Source: Sphingomicrobium nitratireducens
GTDB lineage: Bacteria > Pseudomonadota > Alphaproteobacteria > Sphingomonadales > Sphingomonadaceae
Length of the DNA: 64,000 bases
Direction: 5' to 3'
NCBI RefSeq assembly: GCF_026157035.1
Contig: NZ_JANJZA010000001.1
Location: 971,001-1,035,000 of the forward strand
In this document: positions 2,279 through 20,800 of the stretch, in pieces
Layout of the letters: every line of letters starts with the position of its first letter
Numbering within the stretch: position 1 is the stretch's first letter
Notes under the pieces: model-generated
The model's input: only the letters and a program-made list of their open reading frames with translations
What the model was told of the DNA's origin: nothing
Databases searched by the model: none
Made by a program: the position numbers and the translations under genes

Positions 2279-4243
2279 TCAAATCAGTCCGCAGACCGGT
2301 TCCGCGCGGCTCGCCTCGCAGATGGCGGGACGGTGGTCGTCGCTGAGGCGCCAGTAGCCGGGAAGGTCGAGATTGCGCACGAGTGCGAGGAAAGCCGGCT
2401 GCGCACGCGCGCCCTTCATCGGGCTCGACCAGGCATGGACGAGGCCCCACAGGCTTTCTCGCTCGGCCCCGGCCACGAAAAAGTCCGCCAACTCCTTGTC
2501 GCGCCCCGCGAGACCAAGGAGCGTGGGAAGACGCGAATCGTACCATTCGATGCGGCCGAGCTGGGAGACGAGAGGAGCGGACGACGTCGTGATGGCGGCG
2601 CGATCACCCGATCGCAACGCATCGATGAGCGCGGGGACCTGTGCCCGTCCGGGTAGATCGGGAGAGGCGGCAACGACCGCGTCGAGGGCCTGCCAATCGC
2701 TCGTCCGTGCAGCGAAGACGAACTCGGCGATCCGGGTACCCGGGGTGCCGGGCCACTCGGACTTGAGCTTATTCAACAGGGCCTCGGCGTCGGCGGTGCG
2801 TCCGAGATCGAGCAGGAGGATGACCTTGGCGGAACGCGAATTCACGTCCGAGGGGTCGTTGGCCCAGATGCGGTCGATGGTGGCAATCGCCTCCTCGGGG
2901 CGGCCCATGCCGGTGAGCGCGTCGCGATAGAGTTGCGCTTCGCAGCCACAGTCGGTCGGGCGTAGCGAATTCGCCTCCTCGGCCTGGCGGTCGAACGCGG
3001 CGAAGTTGCGCAGCGGCTGTTCGCGGCGGATCGCCCCGAGAGTGTCGAGCGCGTCGAGCATCTTGAGCTTGGGATAGGAGGGATCGACCTTCAGACCGGC
3101 TTCGAGCGCGCGTCGGAAGTTCTTGTAGCTCTCCTCCTTCGTGTCGAAGGTGTAGAAATCTGCCAGCGTACCCCAGCAGCCTGCGCAGCCCGGGTCCTCG
3201 GCAACGACGGACTCGAGCCGGGCAATCTCGGTCTTGAGGTCGAACTCGCCCGTTAGCCCGATGCTGCAGCTTTGCGCCCAAGAACGGATGGCGGCCTCGG
3301 GGATGATATGAATGTCGCTGCCGCTCGAATCGCTCGCGGTGGCGATGCAGCGCAAGAGGACCGCGACCTTGTGGCCGAGATACTTGGCGGCGTTTGCCTC
3401 CTGCTCGCTCGGTACCTCGATCCGCGGACTGAGGATCGGGGAAGAAATCTCAGGCGCGTAGATCTTGGCGAAGAGCAGGATCTTGCCGTCGCCGCGGCGG
3501 ATGTTGCCACTCATCTGGAACGCGTCCAGGTGGCGCTTGCCGTCGCCTTCGAGCGGGGTCAGGCGCGAGGCGGCGTCGAGCATGGCGCCGAGTTCGTCGG
3601 CGAACGCCTGGTCGAAGCCGGGCGGGATGCCGGGGCCTTCGACGATGGTGAAGCGGTCGACATAGACGTCGGGCGTGCCGGTGCTGGCGAGACCGAGCGA
3701 CCCCTTGAAGAGCAACAGGAGCAAGGCGGCGGCAACGGCGAGGCCACCGAGAACCGCAGCCATCGGACGGCGCGGCGCCTTCATGGCGGAGGCGGGGGCA
3801 GGGGGGCCGGCAGGGGAGGGGGAAAGCGGAGCAGCGTCGGGGAGTCGGTTGGCGCCCGTGTGGACGCTTTCGATCCAGTCGAGCAGCTTGACCCAGTGCG
3901 GATCGTCGGTGGTGAACGTGCCGCCGGTAAGGTCGACTGCCTGGCGCAGCTTGAAAGCGAGGGGGATTTCGCACTCTTCGATGACGGCCGGGACGAGCTT
4001 CCTATGGTCCTGCCCGTAATGGGCCTCGGTGCGCACCCAGTCGGAATCGACCGATTGTGGGCTCCATAGGACGAGCACTGCGCGGGCGGCCGCGATCTGC
4101 TGTTCGATCGTCGCGTCCCACGCCTGGTGCGGAGTGATCGCCTCGTCCCACCACACTTCGTATCCGGCATTCTCGAGCGCGGCGACGATGCGCGCGGCGG
4201 TCGAGACATCCTCGCGCTTGTAGCTGATGAAGATGTCCGACAC
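2279..4243 (-). CDS. TIR-membrane helix-TPR protein
   Basis: 654 residues from a GTG start with a TTGGGGGACGG ribosome site. Order of parts: TIR domain (about 1-140; FISYKRED, VWWDEAITP, VLVLWSPQSVDSDWVRTEA), Pro/Ala-rich linker (140-155), one transmembrane helix (about 162-182), a TolB/FlgO-like domain (about 190-310; FADELGAMLDAASRL, FQMSGNIRRGDGK), then alpha-helical repeats resembling TPRs (about 335-560; WGTLADFYTF, FRRALEAGLKVDPSYPKL). The predicted topology puts TIR in the cytoplasm and the sensor/TPR part outside. A partial paralogue lies at 1-863. The closest architectural relatives are adenylate cyclases that carry TolB and TPR modules; here TIR replaces the cyclase. Function unknown; signalling or defence are both possible. 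Confidence 0.88.
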   Translation of the reverse strand: MSDIFISYKREDVSTAARIVAALENAGYEVWWDEAITPHQAWDATIEQQIAAARAVLVLWSPQSVDSDWVRTEAHYGQDHRKLVPAVIEECEIPLAFKLRQAVDLTGGTFTTDDPHWVKLLDWIESVHTGANRLPDAAPLSPSPAGPPAPASAMKAPRRPMAAVLGGLAVAAALLLLLFKGSLGLASTGTPDVYVDRFTIVEGPGIPPGFDQAFADELGAMLDAASRLTPLEGDGKRHLDAFQMSGNIRRGDGKILLFAKIYAPEISSPILSPRIEVPSEQEANAAKYLGHKVAVLLRCIATASDSSGSDIHIIPEAAIRSWAQSCSIGLTGEFDLKTEIARLESVVAEDPGCAGCWGTLADFYTFDTKEESYKNFRRALEAGLKVDPSYPKLKMLDALDTLGAIRREQPLRNFAAFDRQAEEANSLRPTDCGCEAQLYRDALTGMGRPEEAIATIDRIWANDPSDVNSRSAKVILLLDLGRTADAEALLNKLKSEWPGTPGTRIAEFVFAARTSDWQALDAVVAASPDLPGRAQVPALIDALRSGDRAAITTSSAPLVSQLGRIEWYDSRLPTLLGLAGRDKELADFFVAGAERESLWGLVHAWSSPMKGARAQPAFLALVRNLDLPGYWRLSDDHRPAICEASRAEPVCGLI

Positions 4244-4306: not shown

Positions 4307-6628
4307 TCAGGCCGGCGAAACGAAACTGTCGAGGACCCGCTTCTTGCCGGCCTTCTCGAAATCGATCTCCAGCTTGTTGCCTTCGATGGCCTCGATCTTC
4401 CCGTAGCCAAACTTGCCGTGAAACACGCGCTGGCCGACCTCCAGGTCGCTGCGGCCCTTCTTGCCTAGGCTGACGGCGCTGCCCTTCGCTTCGACGATGC
4501 GGGGCTGGTCGGTGGAGAAGCGCTCGCTGGCGCGTTGCCAGCCGGGGCCGCGGGTCAGGGTGCGCGCGGGCTGGCGGCGGGCGACGTGAGCGAAGGGGTC
4601 GCCATGCTCGCTCCACTGCGCGCGCCACAGGCTCTCGCCGCCCGTCATGGTCTGCTCCTCCTCGATATGGTCCTCCGGCAGTTCGCCGACGAAGCGCGAG
4701 GGGATTGAGCTGGTCCACTGGCCGTAGATGCGGCGGTTGGCGGCGTGGAGGATCGTCGCGCGCCGCCTCGCGCGCGTGATCGCGACATAAGCGAGGCGGC
4801 GCTCTTCCTCGAGGCTGGAGGTGCCGCCTTCGTCCAGCGCGCGCTGCGAGGGGAACAGGCCTTCCTCCCAGCCGGCGAGGAAGACGTTGGGAAATTCGAG
4901 GCCCTTGGCAGCGTGGATGGTCATGATGGTGACCCGCTCGCCCGACTTGTCGGCGTCGTGGTCCATCACCAGGCTGACATGTTCGAGAAAGGCCTCGAGC
5001 GTCTCGTATTCCTCCATCGCGCGCGCGAGCTCGGCGAGGTTCTCGAGGCGGCCTGCGGCCTCGGCCGACTTGTCCGCCTGGAGCATGGACGTGTAGCCCG
5101 ATTCCTCGAGGATGACGCGTGCGAGTTCGGGCGCGGGAAGCTCGCCTGACATCTGCCGCCAGCGCGCGATGTCGGCGATGAAGCGCGCGAGGCTGTTACG
5201 CGCGGCGGGGCGCAGCTCGTCGGTGTCGAGGATCGAGGCGGCGGCCAGCAGCAGCGGCTGGCCCGCGGCGCGCGCGTACTGGTGGACGGTCGCGACCGCC
5301 TTGTCGCCGAGCCCGCGCTTGGGGGTGTTGACGATGCGGTCGAAGGCGAGGTCGTCGGCAGGCTGGTGGATGAGGCGCAGATAGGCGATCGCGTCGCGGA
5401 TCTCGGCGCGCTCGTAGAAGCGGAAGCCGCCGATGATCTGGTAATCGAGGCCGATCGAGATGAAGCGTTCCTCGAACTCGCGCGTCTGGTGCTGCGCGCG
5501 CACGAGGATGGCGCAGTCGTTGAGCGAGCCGCCCTTGGAGATGTGGTTCTCGATCTCCTCGCCGACGCGGCGCGCTTCCTCGGGGCCGTCCCAGACGCCG
5601 AGCACGCGAACCTTCTCGCCCGCGTCGGCCTCGGTCCACAGCGTCTTGCCGAGGCGCCCGCTATTGTGGGCGATGACGCCCGAGGCGGCGCCGAGGATAT
5701 GGCCGGTCGAGCGGTAATTCTGTTCGAGGCGGACGATCTTGGCGTCCGGAAAATCCTTCTCGAAGCGCAGGATGTTGGCGACCTCCGCGCCGCGCCACGA
5801 ATAGATGGACTGGTCGTCGTCGCCCACGCAGCACAAATTGTTGTCGGGGGCGGCGAGGAGGCGCAGCCACTCGTACTGCGAACTGTTGGTGTCCTGATAT
5901 TCGTCGACGAGGAGGTAGCGGAAGCGCTTGCGATAGTCTTCGAGGACGTCCGGATGGGCCTTGAAGATGGTGAGCATGTGAAGCAGCAGGTCGCCGAAGT
6001 CGGCGGCGTTCACGGCGCGGAGGCGCTCCTGGTACTGGGCGTAGAGTTCGGCGCCCTTGCCGTTGGCGAAACCCTCGCTCTCGGCGGCGTCGATATGGCT
6101 GGGCGTCCAGCCGCGGTTCTTCCAGCGGTCGATAAGGCCGGCGAGCTGGCGGGCGGGCCAGCGCTTCACGTCGAGATTGTTGGCCTCGATGAGCTGCTTG
6201 AGCAGGCGCAGCTGGTCGTCGGTGTCGATGATGGTGAAGTTGGACTGGAGGCCGACCAGTTCGGCGTGGCTCCTCAGCATGCGCGCGCACACGGAATGGA
6301 AGGTGCCGAGCCAGGGCATGGTCTCGACCGCGCCGCCGGTGATCTTCGCGACGCGCTCCTTCATCTCGCGCGCGGCCTTGTTGGTGAAGGTCACCGCGAG
6401 GATCTGGCTCGGCCAGGCGCGGCGGGTGGCGATGAGGTGCGCGAGGCGCGCGGTGAGCGCGGCGGTCTTGCCGGTGCCCGCGCCCGCGAGGACAAGAACC
6501 GGGCCCTCGGTGGTCATCACAGCTTCGCGCTGCGGCGGGTTGAGGCCGGCGAGCCAGGGCGCGTCGTCGGGCATGGGGGCGGGGGGCGGAGATTCGGTCA
6601 CCAGCGACAGGTAGGGACGCGAGAACAT
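4307..6628 (-). CDS. uvrD: UvrD/PcrA-type 3'-5' DNA helicase
   Basis: 773 residues, a full-length superfamily 1A helicase. Visible motifs: Q motif LNPPQREAV (29-37), Walker A AGAGTGKT (48-55), Walker B LLVDEYQDTN, motif III VGDDDQSIYSWRGA, LEQNYRST, TIHAAKGLEFPNVF, and motif VI RLAYVAITRARRR. The C-terminal 50 residues (VGQRVFHGKFGYGKIEAIEG) form the Tudor-like domain that in PcrA/UvrD contacts RNA polymerase. It unwinds DNA in nucleotide excision and mismatch repair and removes stalled complexes. It starts at the ATG at 6626-6628; an internal Met19 is an alternative. The upstream region holds an octamer array. Confidence 0.95.
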   Translation of the reverse strand: MFSRPYLSLVTESPPPAPMPDDAPWLAGLNPPQREAVMTTEGPVLVLAGAGTGKTAALTARLAHLIATRRAWPSQILAVTFTNKAAREMKERVAKITGGAVETMPWLGTFHSVCARMLRSHAELVGLQSNFTIIDTDDQLRLLKQLIEANNLDVKRWPARQLAGLIDRWKNRGWTPSHIDAAESEGFANGKGAELYAQYQERLRAVNAADFGDLLLHMLTIFKAHPDVLEDYRKRFRYLLVDEYQDTNSSQYEWLRLLAAPDNNLCCVGDDDQSIYSWRGAEVANILRFEKDFPDAKIVRLEQNYRSTGHILGAASGVIAHNSGRLGKTLWTEADAGEKVRVLGVWDGPEEARRVGEEIENHISKGGSLNDCAILVRAQHQTREFEERFISIGLDYQIIGGFRFYERAEIRDAIAYLRLIHQPADDLAFDRIVNTPKRGLGDKAVATVHQYARAAGQPLLLAAASILDTDELRPAARNSLARFIADIARWRQMSGELPAPELARVILEESGYTSMLQADKSAEAAGRLENLAELARAMEEYETLEAFLEHVSLVMDHDADKSGERVTIMTIHAAKGLEFPNVFLAGWEEGLFPSQRALDEGGTSSLEEERRLAYVAITRARRRATILHAANRRIYGQWTSSIPSRFVGELPEDHIEEEQTMTGGESLWRAQWSEHGDPFAHVARRQPARTLTRGPGWQRASERFSTDQPRIVEAKGSAVSLGKKGRSDLEVGQRVFHGKFGYGKIEAIEGNKLEIDFEKAGKKRVLDSFVSPA

Positions 6629-6643
6629 TTGGGCAACCCGCTG

Positions 6644-6717
6644 GCGACTCGGCGGGCGCGGCGCGAGTCGCGGGCGAGTCGGAAGCGAGTCGCGGGGCGG
6701 AATCGGGTTGCGAATCG
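6644..6717. repeat. Phased GCGAGTCG octamer array upstream of uvrD
   Basis: Three exact GCGAGTCG copies start at 6663, 6674 and 6685, exactly 11 bp apart, so they lie on one helical face. One-mismatch copies flank them: GCGACTCG at 6644 and GCGAATCG at 6710. The array is 16-90 bp before the uvrD start and reads CGACTCGC on the coding strand. This spacing suits cooperative binding by a regulator, but no known operator matched. A chance product of GC-rich sequence is possible. Confidence 0.5.
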
Positions 6718-6793
6718 TCTGGGCAGGGGGTAGGGGCGCGGCTGAAATGGCGGACTGCCCCTCCGATTCCCGCTCTTTTCCACGATATCCCCG

Positions 6794-6802
6794 TTATCCA
6801 CA
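6794..6802 (+). promoter_or_regulatory. Perfect DnaA box TTATCCACA
   Basis: TTATCCACA matches the strict DnaA consensus. A weaker version, TTTTCCACG, lies 10 bp before it (6776-6784). It sits 23 bp upstream of the -35 box of the putative RNA promoter. No AT-rich unwinding region or box cluster is present, so this is more likely a DnaA regulatory site than an origin. Confidence 0.45.
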
Positions 6803-6824
6803 GGCAGATTCTTCGAAATCGCCG

Positions 6825-6853
6825 TTGTGACACAAGGGGTTGGGGTGCATAAC
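6825..6853 (+). promoter_or_regulatory. Sigma70-type promoter for the 6.9-7.35 kb RNA
   Basis: TTGTGA (6825-6830) and CATAAC (6848-6853) are separated by exactly 17 bp. A transcript would begin near 6860, just before the hairpin-rich stretch that ends in a strong terminator. No convincing start codon with a ribosome site follows. Confidence 0.45.
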
Positions 6854-6859
6854 AGAATT

Positions 6860-7352
6860 GTGATCGGGACGACCGCCCGGCCTCCTTCGGGAGGAAGGAA
6901 ACGGAAGTTCCGATCTCCGCCGGCAGGCGATGGGTGGCCATCAAAGCCTGCATCTAGTTCCTTCGGGAGCGGGATGTGGGGGCAGCCCGGACCAGCCGGT
7001 CAGAGGCGCCGGAAGTGCCGGTGCTCGGTCGCTGCGCCAGATGTCCTTCGGGGCGGACGGCGGCGCGAAGAGCCCGGTCCAAGAAGGGCCGCTGAACGCC
7101 GGATGGCTGCGAGACCTTCGGGTCGAGGGCCTGGAACTCCGGAAGGGAAAGCGGAGCCAGTCGAAAGTCTGGCAGGCGCACCCGGAAGGAAGACGAGGCT
7201 CCCTTCGGGGAGGACGTTCGGTCCGGAAGCGACGCCTGAGCGGTTGCGCCAGGATCGTAGACGGTTTGCCCTCCGGGGCGGACAAGGTCGCGAACACCGG
7301 TAACGCTTAGCTCGGCGCAGTGGGGGCCAGCAGCAATGCTGGCCCCCATTTC
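6860..7352 (+). ncRNA. Candidate long structured non-coding RNA, family unknown
   Basis: This gap of about 490 bases has a promoter at its start and an intrinsic terminator at its end, and no frame that looks like a protein. It is dense in hairpins. Four are capped by UUCG: 6881-6894 (CCTCC-TTCG-GGAGG), 6957-6970, 7113-7124 (GACC-TTCG-GGTC) and 7199-7212 (CTCCC-TTCG-GGGAG). A two-part stem, GCAGGC-GATGG/CCATC-GCCTGC, spans 6923-6951. The string CGGAAG recurs between stems (near 6902, 7010, 7140, 7183 and 7224). It lacks the conserved RNase P core GAGGAAAGTCC, and tmRNA is found elsewhere in the window. I do not recognise the family. The open frames crossing it in both directions have biased composition and no family resemblance. 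Confidence 0.5.
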
Positions 7353-7357
7353 TGTTT
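7321..7357 (+). terminator. Intrinsic terminator of the candidate RNA
   Basis: A perfect 12-bp stem TGGGGGCCAGCA / TGCTGGCCCCCA with a GCAA loop (7333-7336), followed by TTTCTGTTT. It lies between the RNA candidate and the methyltransferase gene, which starts at 7478. Confidence 0.8.
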
Positions 7358-7477
7358 CGGGGGGGCTCGCCCGGCAAGCGCTCCTGCCCATGTCGCTCCC
7401 CGGCCATCGGTCGAACCGCCCCTTCCAATTCCCACTCTCGCCACTAGTCTCGCGCCCGCACAGCAGGGAGACGAGCG

Positions 7478-8236
7478 ATGAAGACATGGACGATCGCAGC
7501 GAGCGCGCTGGCGCTGGCGTGGAGCGGGGCGGCGAGCGCGGGCGAACCCGCCGATATTGCGGCGGCCGTGGCCGACACCGATAACCGCCGCGAAGACAAT
7601 GTCGCGCTCGATGCCAACCGCCACCCGGTGGAGATGCTCGCGTTCGGCGGGCTCAAACAGGGGATGCGCGTGCTCGACCTGTTCGGGGCCAATCTCTACT
7701 GGAGCGAGCTGATGGCGCCCGCGCTCGGCCCCGACGGGCTGATTGTCATCTGGAATCCGAACCAGTTCCTCTCGCCCGAGGCCAAGGCGGGGTTCGAGGC
7801 CTTTCATGCGCGCCAGCCGCGCACGGTGCTGATCCACTCGCCGATGGAAAATCCGATCCTGGGATCGGGCTACGACCTGGTGCTGATGAACCTCGACTAT
7901 CACGACGTCTACTGGGAGTCGGAGAAGTACAAGATTTCGCGGATGGAGCCTGCCACATGGACAGGCGCGATCGCCAAGGCGATGGCGCCGGGCGGCGTGC
8001 TGCTGCTTGCGGACCACCGCGCCAAGTCCGGCGCTGCGCCGCGCGAGTCCGTCGAGGCGTATCACCGCATCGATCCGGCCGTCGTCGTGCGCGACTTCAC
8101 TGCAGCAGGGCTGGTACTCGAGGAGGAAAGCGAGCTGCTCGCCAATCCGGCGGATGGTCGCGAAACCAACGTGTTCGCGCCCGATATCCGCGGCAAAACC
8201 GACCGCTTCCTGCTGCGCTTCCGCAAGCCCGAATAG
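7478..8236 (+). CDS. Secreted class I methyltransferase-like protein
   Basis: 252 residues. An N-terminal signal peptide (about 1-21, ending AASA) precedes a Rossmann-type methyltransferase fold: GMRVLDLFGANLYWSELMAPALGP is the motif I/SAM-binding region, LVLMNLDYHD sits at motif IV, and APGGVLLLADHRAK matches the late strands. It resembles the family of predicted periplasmic methyltransferases (COG4798). SAM is not normally found in the periplasm, so the real substrate and cofactor are open. The ATG has GGGAGACGAGCG upstream. It converges on the gene ending at 8240. Confidence 0.85.
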   Translation: MKTWTIAASALALAWSGAASAGEPADIAAAVADTDNRREDNVALDANRHPVEMLAFGGLKQGMRVLDLFGANLYWSELMAPALGPDGLIVIWNPNQFLSPEAKAGFEAFHARQPRTVLIHSPMENPILGSGYDLVLMNLDYHDVYWESEKYKISRMEPATWTGAIAKAMAPGGVLLLADHRAKSGAAPRESVEAYHRIDPAVVVRDFTAAGLVLEEESELLANPADGRETNVFAPDIRGKTDRFLLRFRKPE

Positions 8237-20297: not shown

Positions 20298-20412
20298 TGG
20301 ATAGTCCCCTTCAATTCATTCCGTGTGGTGGCGTCAAAGCCTCAGCAACAGAACGGTTCCAACGCAGGCCACTTAAAGACGGTTCCGCTTGCGTCACGAA
20401 AAGTCAATTGTC

Positions 20413-20441
20413 TTGTCTGCGCGAAGGGCAGCGCCTATCTA
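20413..20441 (+). promoter_or_regulatory. Promoter of the tmRNA gene
   Basis: TTGTCT (20413-20418) and TATCTA (20436-20441) with exactly 17 bp between them. Transcription would start near 20448, just ahead of the tmRNA acceptor piece. Confidence 0.55.
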
Positions 20442-20447
20442 GGGAGG

Positions 20448-20800
20448 GCCGGTTTTCCGGCTATGTCGGTAGAGTATCGCGTGGAATAGGCATTTCGGAC
20501 CCGGGGGGCAGTACCCCGGCGCCTCCACCACCAGCCCCGCCACGATCGGGATTGCTGATGGGGGCGAAACAGGATCGACGAGTGCAATAAAGGCGCGGTT
20601 GCCGATCGGTATGAGACCACCGTGACGGCTCATTTTCACAAGTGCCAACGATAACGAGGCGCTCGCTATTGCTGCGTAACAAGTAACCTCACGGTGAACG
20701 TTACAAAGCCATAAGCGCGGTCGGACCCCACCGGGCAACAGAAGGGGATTCCAGCGGTTTGGGGGGTACCGGGCAACAGAAACCCCCCACTTCCTTCCCG
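20448..20800 (+). ncRNA. ssrA: Transfer-messenger RNA, permuted two-piece form
   Basis: tmRNA rescues ribosomes stalled on broken mRNA. The gene is circularly permuted, as in alphaproteobacteria: the acceptor piece comes first and ends CGCCTCCACCA at 20530, and the coding piece begins GGGGGCGAAACAGGATCGAC at 20560. The two ends pair over seven bases (GGGGGCG with CGCCTCC). The tag frame starts with GCC at 20644 and reads ANDNEALAIAA before TAA at 20677-20679. GC-rich pseudoknot sequence follows, including paired GGGGGGT / AACCCCCC near 20761-20788. The bases between 20530 and 20560 should be removed during maturation. Outer ends are approximate. Confidence 0.93.

Follow-up and report, generated by a model that had tools for sequence, protein, structure and literature searches.

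The stretch analysed here, 64,000 nucleotides (nt) of the Sphingomicrobium nitratireducens genome on contig NZ_JANJZA010000001.1 (hereafter the window), contains what is, from its sequence, almost certainly a real and free-standing noncoding RNA gene. The gene is located at 6860..7357 on the plus strand and encodes a predicted transcript of approximately 490–500 nt, supported by folding, homology searches, covariation and the lack of a kept reading frame. A first-pass annotation had proposed an RNA with its own promoter and terminator belonging to no recognised family, and this proposal is supported, with no Rfam 15 model matching at cut-off. The RNA lies 55–56 bases past a DnaA-box element and contains covarying helices; no conserved protein is encoded, and the gene is found, together with its promoter and terminator, next to varying neighbours. 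Regulation of the RNA by DnaA and GcrA is predicted. The chances are evenly balanced that this is a trans-acting RNA under the control of DnaA, in most relatives also of GcrA acting at GANTC, and perhaps bound by a protein at its CGGAAG repeats.

The promoter-like pair, predicted from the sequence, spans 6825..6853 on the plus strand and is composed of a -35 box TTGTGA (6825–6830), a 17-bp spacer and a -10 box CATAAC (6848–6853). It was found as the first-pass annotation had described it, directly upstream of the start given there (6860). The CA of the -10 box is invariant in 21 aligned loci. The RNA body starts with GTGATCGGG at 6860–6868 and ends in an intrinsic terminator (7321..7357, plus strand) featuring a perfect 12-bp stem, in which 7321–7332 pairs with 7337–7348, a GCAA loop and the T-rich tail TTTCTGTTT. 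The perfect terminator stem, the UUCG-capped stems and the at least five copies of CGGAAG reported previously are all present in the sequence; the RNA contains TTCGG six times and CGGAAG five times. Its earlier placement after uvrD requires correction: uvrD is encoded on the minus strand (4307–6628), hence the RNA and the start of uvrD are divergent. The next open reading frame (ORF) taken as a gene, at 7478, has the same direction as the RNA.

An element overlooked by the first-pass annotation precedes this promoter. The element GATATCCnCGTTATCCACAGG consists of a consensus DnaA box and a weaker copy. In the window it reads GATATCCCCGTTATCCACAGG (6784..6804, plus strand), with the consensus DnaA box TTATCCACA at 6794–6802, immediately preceded in the same orientation by the weaker copy, which contains TATCC. 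A perfect TTATCCACA occurs once in the window, where 0.06 would be expected; the portion of the genome that was sampled contains two. The element is present in all 30 genus loci with 0–3 mismatches, and its distance to GTGATCGG is 55 bases in 24 of these loci and 56 in the remaining six. Just past the DnaA box of the window is a GANTC site (GATTC, 6807..6811, plus strand); in most relatives there is, in its place, a CGACTC within the spacer between the -35 and -10 boxes. GANTC is the methylation site of CcrM, and its depletion in the window (68 sites versus 358 expected) is as in genomes with CcrM-type methylation. Nine of the 68 sites are situated between 6591 and 6811. The genome also encodes GcrA (133.4 bits). 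Methylated GANTC sites are bound by GcrA, and methylation-independent cases are also reported, according to PMC7987155.

The predicted folding of 6850–7360 gave -267.9 kcal/mol compared to -234.6 +/- 6.4 kcal/mol for 100 shuffles (z -5.2), none of which was as low. The minus strand folds similarly low (z -4.4, 0/100), so folding energy leaves the strand undecided, and it is the promoter, the terminator and covariation that decide it. Structure was counted in 21 of the 30 genus loci, these being the 24 with all anchors minus L005, L017 and L030. Across the 21 aligned sequences, 95.5% of the cells of the 46 chosen pairs can pair. Compensatory changes in the orthologous gaps, a check put forward by the first-pass annotation, exceed both the shuffled and the slid controls: 12 pairs (6.0 in shuffles) and 52 cells (14.4 in shuffles) have both partners changed, with 0/500 shuffles reaching either value, and slid-partner controls reach a maximum of 8 pairs and 16 cells, a comparison that is flattered because the pairs were partly picked from the consensus fold of the same sequences. 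These counts apply to the whole structure and not helix by helix.

The doubly changed pairs are distributed as five in helix P3, four in the terminator, two in P1 and one in P2, all of these helices being on the plus strand. The inner part of P3 (7015–7023 with 7072–7080) has five of its eight pairs doubly changed, one of them in as many as 12 of the 21 sequences; the outer part (7005–7010 with 7086–7090) is invariant and the core motifs of the helix, GGCGCCGGAAGAG and CCAAGAAGGGCCGC, are nearly so. The terminator helix is paired in 99.6% of cells, with 4 of its 12 pairs doubly changed. P1 closes the 5' domain (6862–6870 with 6907–6915; GATCGGGAC / GTTCCGATC) and has six pairs invariant in the 21 sequences, while its three innermost pairs are unpaired in 8, in 11 (doubly changed in 1) and in 2 (doubly changed in 2). 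P2 (6920–6924 with 6995–6999) is formed by CCGGC/GCCGG, or by CCGAC/GUCGG in some relatives, and is paired in 94.1% of cells, the one doubly changed pair being GC in 12, AU in 3 and GU in 3. P5 closes the 3' domain on the same strand (7234–7241 with 7310–7316; GCCTGAGC / GCTCGGC) and is 97.3% paired with no doubly changed pairs; covariation is silent there, since P5, like the outer part of P3, hardly varies. As judged from these alignments, covariation is strong for P3 and the terminator and weak for P1 and P2. A protein-coding function was rejected: a comparison of 24 loci showed that segment lengths do not stay in steps of three and that no open frame persists, so the conserved reading frame that the first-pass annotation had named as the contrary outcome is not found across these loci.

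A search at the DNA level gave matches in 33 of 61 genomes, corresponding to 33 of the 37 genus members (own genome included) and none of the 24 others. The own genome contains a single match. The covariance model R1, representing the 3' domain, matched 64 of 71 genus genomes and 52 of the 53 good ones; two of the 64 matches are weak (G002 and G289). The RNA of G002 (L014) keeps its 5' half, and a long insert precedes an altered terminator. The near-invariant motifs of the RNA are GTGATCGGG, CCGATCTC, GGCGCCGGAAGAG, CCAAGAAGGGCCG, GCGACGCCTGAGC and CTCGGCGCA, and between them are freely varying stretches of 16–71 and 27–295 bases (24 loci). The uvrD gene adjoins the RNA in 28 of 30 genus loci, and in L016 another gene is apparently found between the two. 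Also adjoining uvrD in the window is an ORF of 654 amino acids (2279–4243) with a TIR-domain-like start, perhaps followed by TPR-like repeats, as judged from its translation.

The unit of promoter, RNA and terminator also occurs in other genera. In two loci of genus g61 (L049 and L150) the DnaA box is accompanied by a GANTC in the spacer, by the core motifs and by the terminator, the box of L150 having one mismatch to TTATCCACA. Here the unit is situated not beside uvrD but between trpF and rsmB, gene names that come from reading the ORFs. The box pattern alone was found in 44 of 246 genomes of the order, belonging to 15 genera, with no matches for the reversed control. Eighteen of these genomes are of the genus and 26 are not; the latter were judged as 16 of the RNA type (including G265, which is L049), eight with the boxes at hemE/PPSR and two with neither (G039 and G050), which are without a GANTC-spacer promoter and a terminator of the unit's kind. 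A spacer CGACTC or CGAATC, not demanded by the search, is present in 16 of the 16 RNA-type genomes outside the genus, and a GNRA-capped terminator was identified in 13 of 15 of them and in L049. No genome of families f2–f8 was accepted, their five box matches being three at hemE/PPSR (G100, G115, G118) together with G039 and G050.

A strict form of the promoter pattern, searched in a collection of 84,980 species genomes, matched 64 stretches: 53 from named sphingomonads (Sphingomonas, Hephaestia, Sphingosinicella, and metagenome-assembled genomes (MAGs) of Sphingomonadaceae or Sphingomonadales), two from look-alike proteobacterial MAGs (L212 and L235) and nine others. The last nine, non-sphingomonads and one uncultured alphaproteobacterium, were left out of the terminator count; approximately 10.7 matches would be expected by chance at even base use. 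A GNRA-capped terminator follows the box at 320–814 bases on the same strand in 42 of the 55 sphingomonad loci and on the opposite strand in none of the 55, compared to 0/9 of the other matches and 21/320 random stretches; as the random stretches come from these loci too, some may overlap with the RNAs. Among the 13 loci without this hairpin, fewer than 450 bases are left in L209, L259 and L265, and a looser hairpin pattern recovers five (L204, L228, L232, L252, L264) and does not find one in L212, L214, L218, L234 and L235. The RNA lengths estimated among the sphingomonad loci range from 260 to 754 nt.

The R1 model matched 141 of the 246 order genomes, 19 of them of the genus. Most scores outside the genus are approximately 30 bits; such weak matches may be terminator hairpins and were not counted as homologues by themselves. 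A match was accepted if the promoter accompanied it in the same orientation or if, as in L049 and L150, the core motifs were present. Among 13 R1 loci inspected (L049–L061), the RNA is present in L049 and the genus member L050 only. A further promoter search, which misses the window itself, matched 19 of the 246 genomes, all in family f1 and in five genera. In 9 of the 13 genomes outside the genus, the promoter match and the R1 match fall together and in the same orientation (G095, G201, G218, G157, G229, G080, G178, G254, G098); of the remainder, G075 and G215 have no R1 match and the R1 positions of G241 and G202 were not listed, the G241 match being a search match only. Reading of the sequence identified the unit in genera g23, g30, g34, g39, g45, g60 and g61, and search matches alone in g41. 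A pattern for the C domain matched 8 of 397 family genomes, six of the genus and two of g61, with one control match. A core of the g1 type is also found, as judged by eye, in L221 (Sphingomonas colocasiae) and L260 (S. horti). A second subtype of RNA body has a different set of shared motifs, with compensatory changes of its own at 16 of 49 predicted pairs, counted without a shuffle control in 11 selected sequences, namely those of 42 RNAs that passed a motif filter.

The hemE and PPSR genes mark the alphaproteobacterial origin. In eight genomes (G100, G115, G118, G251, G213, G239, G204, G253) the tandem DnaA-box element is located beside hemE/PPSR, with the genes recognised from sequence (L153, L154, L155, L167, L188, L198, L199, L200), and these box pairs probably mark oriC in the order. 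The GC skew changes from negative to positive at approximately 0.8 Mb in the own genome (G000) and at 1.9–2.0 Mb in G018, away from the RNA positions at 0.978 Mb and 1.254 Mb respectively; the sampling was partial: in G000, where the skew is weak and noisy, it covered approximately 0.84 Mb out of 2.27 Mb, all on contig C1, and in G018 it covered 0.40 Mb out of 2.34 Mb. The skew sampling and the box pairs at hemE/PPSR in other genomes together argue against the RNA locus as oriC, a reading that was rejected.

Over 37 RNAs, CGGAAG occurs 87 times, where 100 dinucleotide shuffles give an expectation of 20.5 (z 15.9), and GGA is likewise enriched over shuffles (z 5.8). In three other RNAs the unpaired share of GGA is 0.46, 0.60 and 0.50 against 0.34–0.35. 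CGGAAG is the best candidate for a protein contact, a step that is itself a guess. A search of the own genome for CsrA (PF02599) gave no match at E <= 0.001, with positive controls in E. coli, B. subtilis and T. maritima, and a CsrA sponge in the strict sense was rejected because CsrA was not found in the genome.

Comparison with known families was made with the Rfam 15 covariance models, a search that the first-pass annotation had suggested. In both gathering and E-value modes, nothing reached cut-off within the RNA in the window and 46 relatives' loci; the matches at cut-off in the loci searched were tmRNA and tRNA only, outside the RNA. The best sub-threshold match was BjrC68 (RF02353; 25.6 bits against a cut-off of 39) at 7295–7356, the 3' end of the RNA with its terminator, and in relatives this model scored 22–28 bits in 7 of 20 RNA ends (maximum 28.3). 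BjrC68 differs in being 82 nt long, and what it matches here is in essence the hairpin of the terminator together with the bases preceding it. The earlier exclusion of RNase P and tmRNA holds, as both are located elsewhere: the sole RNase P match of the genome is at G000:C1:1350737-1351110 (272.7 bits), with none in 6700–7480, and an alpha_tmRNA match is found at 20409–20752 of the window (ARAGORN 20436–20770). The tmRNA gene at 20409–20770 also matches the permuted tmRNA model of Rfam. For 6S RNA (RF00013) there is one match in the genome, likewise elsewhere (G000:C1:1223575-1223727, L202; 40.9 bits against a cut-off of 46.4). With this candidate just below threshold, sphingomonad 6S RNA may be poorly covered by the Rfam model.

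The protein-sponge RNAs CsrB and RsmZ resemble the window RNA in their many hairpins and a repeated GGA-containing motif; the window RNA differs in its long-range helices P1, P2 and P3 and in the lack of a CsrA match noted above. The large RNAs OLE, GOLLD, ROOL and HEARO are similar in having hundreds of nucleotides, covarying helices and no protein, whereas the window RNA matches no Rfam family at cut-off and has neighbours and a promoter of another type. According to PMC8959179, CcnA of Caulobacter crescentus is also an alphaproteobacterial noncoding RNA with DnaA boxes at its gene and a tie to the cell cycle, whereas the RNA described here is approximately 490 nt, multi-helical and apparently off the origin, with the DnaA box, and in most relatives a GANTC, in its promoter. 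A CcnA-type gene inside the origin was rejected, as the RNA position differs from the origin placed by partial GC-skew sampling, noisy in G000, in G000 and G018. For each of RNase P, tmRNA, 6S RNA, CsrB-type sponges and CcnA, a defining feature was tested and not found; the RNA's build is like that of the large structured RNAs and its context like that of CcnA. Full-text searching of the open-access literature listed no paper whose title or opening abstract lines describe the RNA, and a passage of PMC8632094 concerns something other than this RNA.

In E. coli, datA and DARS are DnaA titration and reloading elements, and the box pair of the window could similarly be a cis-acting DNA element that titrates or reloads DnaA or serves uvrD, with the RNA as a by-product. 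This is unlikely: the boxes are strongly conserved, and similar pairs occur at oriC-like hemE/PPSR loci in 8 of 26 non-genus genomes, but box, promoter and RNA share one strand and a fixed spacing, the RNA structure covaries, the unit is found away from uvrD, and a pure binding site requires neither a promoter nor a terminator. A 5' untranslated leader of the downstream gene is extremely improbable. The next ORF of the window is co-directional, but a conserved strong terminator precedes it, its protein is matched in just 3 of 30 genus loci, and by a crude composition rule for ORFs the nearest downstream ORF lies on the opposite strand in G098, G092, G202, G155, G167 and G271.

It is rather doubtful that the RNA is a ribozyme or the RNA of a housekeeping ribonucleoprotein, built on a core that is catalytic or acts as a scaffold, and that its DnaA site merely scales its dose with replication. 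The single match in the own genome, the near-universal presence in good genus genomes, the near-invariant core motifs and the several closed domains are all in keeping with such a role, but the RNA body diverges between genera beyond what is expected for a housekeeping core, and it has no Rfam family at cut-off. An antisense-type regulator pairing with cell-cycle mRNAs has alphaproteobacterial precedents in CcnA (PMC8959179) and EcpR1 (PMC4414408). For the window RNA this appears quite unlikely, as the model places many conserved stretches within helices, and the estimated length and heavy folding would be unusual for an antisense RNA.

Several observations also weigh against a trans-acting RNA under DnaA and GcrA. 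The spacer GANTC is present in 22 of 30 genus loci and absent from the window and seven others, so control by GcrA through this site is not genus-wide. DnaA binding is predicted from the box alone. The unpaired share of GGA in the window RNA (0.33) is hardly higher than the overall share (0.30). The promoter search that matched five genera gave 3 reversed-control matches against 19 real ones, and on inspection no GNRA-capped terminator was found in G075 and G215. Most RNA bodies of other genera are unalignable to the window RNA, their kinship being deduced from promoter, terminator and layout.

The trans-acting reading is nevertheless the one developed here: a gene that keeps its promoter and terminator beside different genes, with downstream neighbours that vary and are sometimes convergent, most likely acts in trans. 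In the proposed mechanism, DnaA bound at approximately -62 from the predicted start would set the time of transcription and thereby tie the RNA to replication, and in most relatives GcrA on the methylated spacer GANTC would also set it. The least certain steps are that the RNA may bind a protein at CGGAAG between its hairpins, as a sponge or scaffold, and that this binding may feed the state of replication to another process. It is conceivable, if doubtful, that the RNA represents a new cell-cycle class of the Sphingomonadaceae, fired once per replication round by DnaA (mostly with GcrA and CcrM), which would bind a dedicated protein and report replication status, serving as a noncoding output of the DnaA clock off oriC.

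Bacteria have few large structured RNAs, and most of these are important. The RNA described here is common in a much-studied environmental family, belongs to no Rfam family and has a promoter pointing to the initiator of replication. If confirmed, it would offer a testable example in which an RNA reports DnaA activity at a site other than the origin, and would illustrate the extent to which an RNA body can drift under a fixed promoter and terminator.
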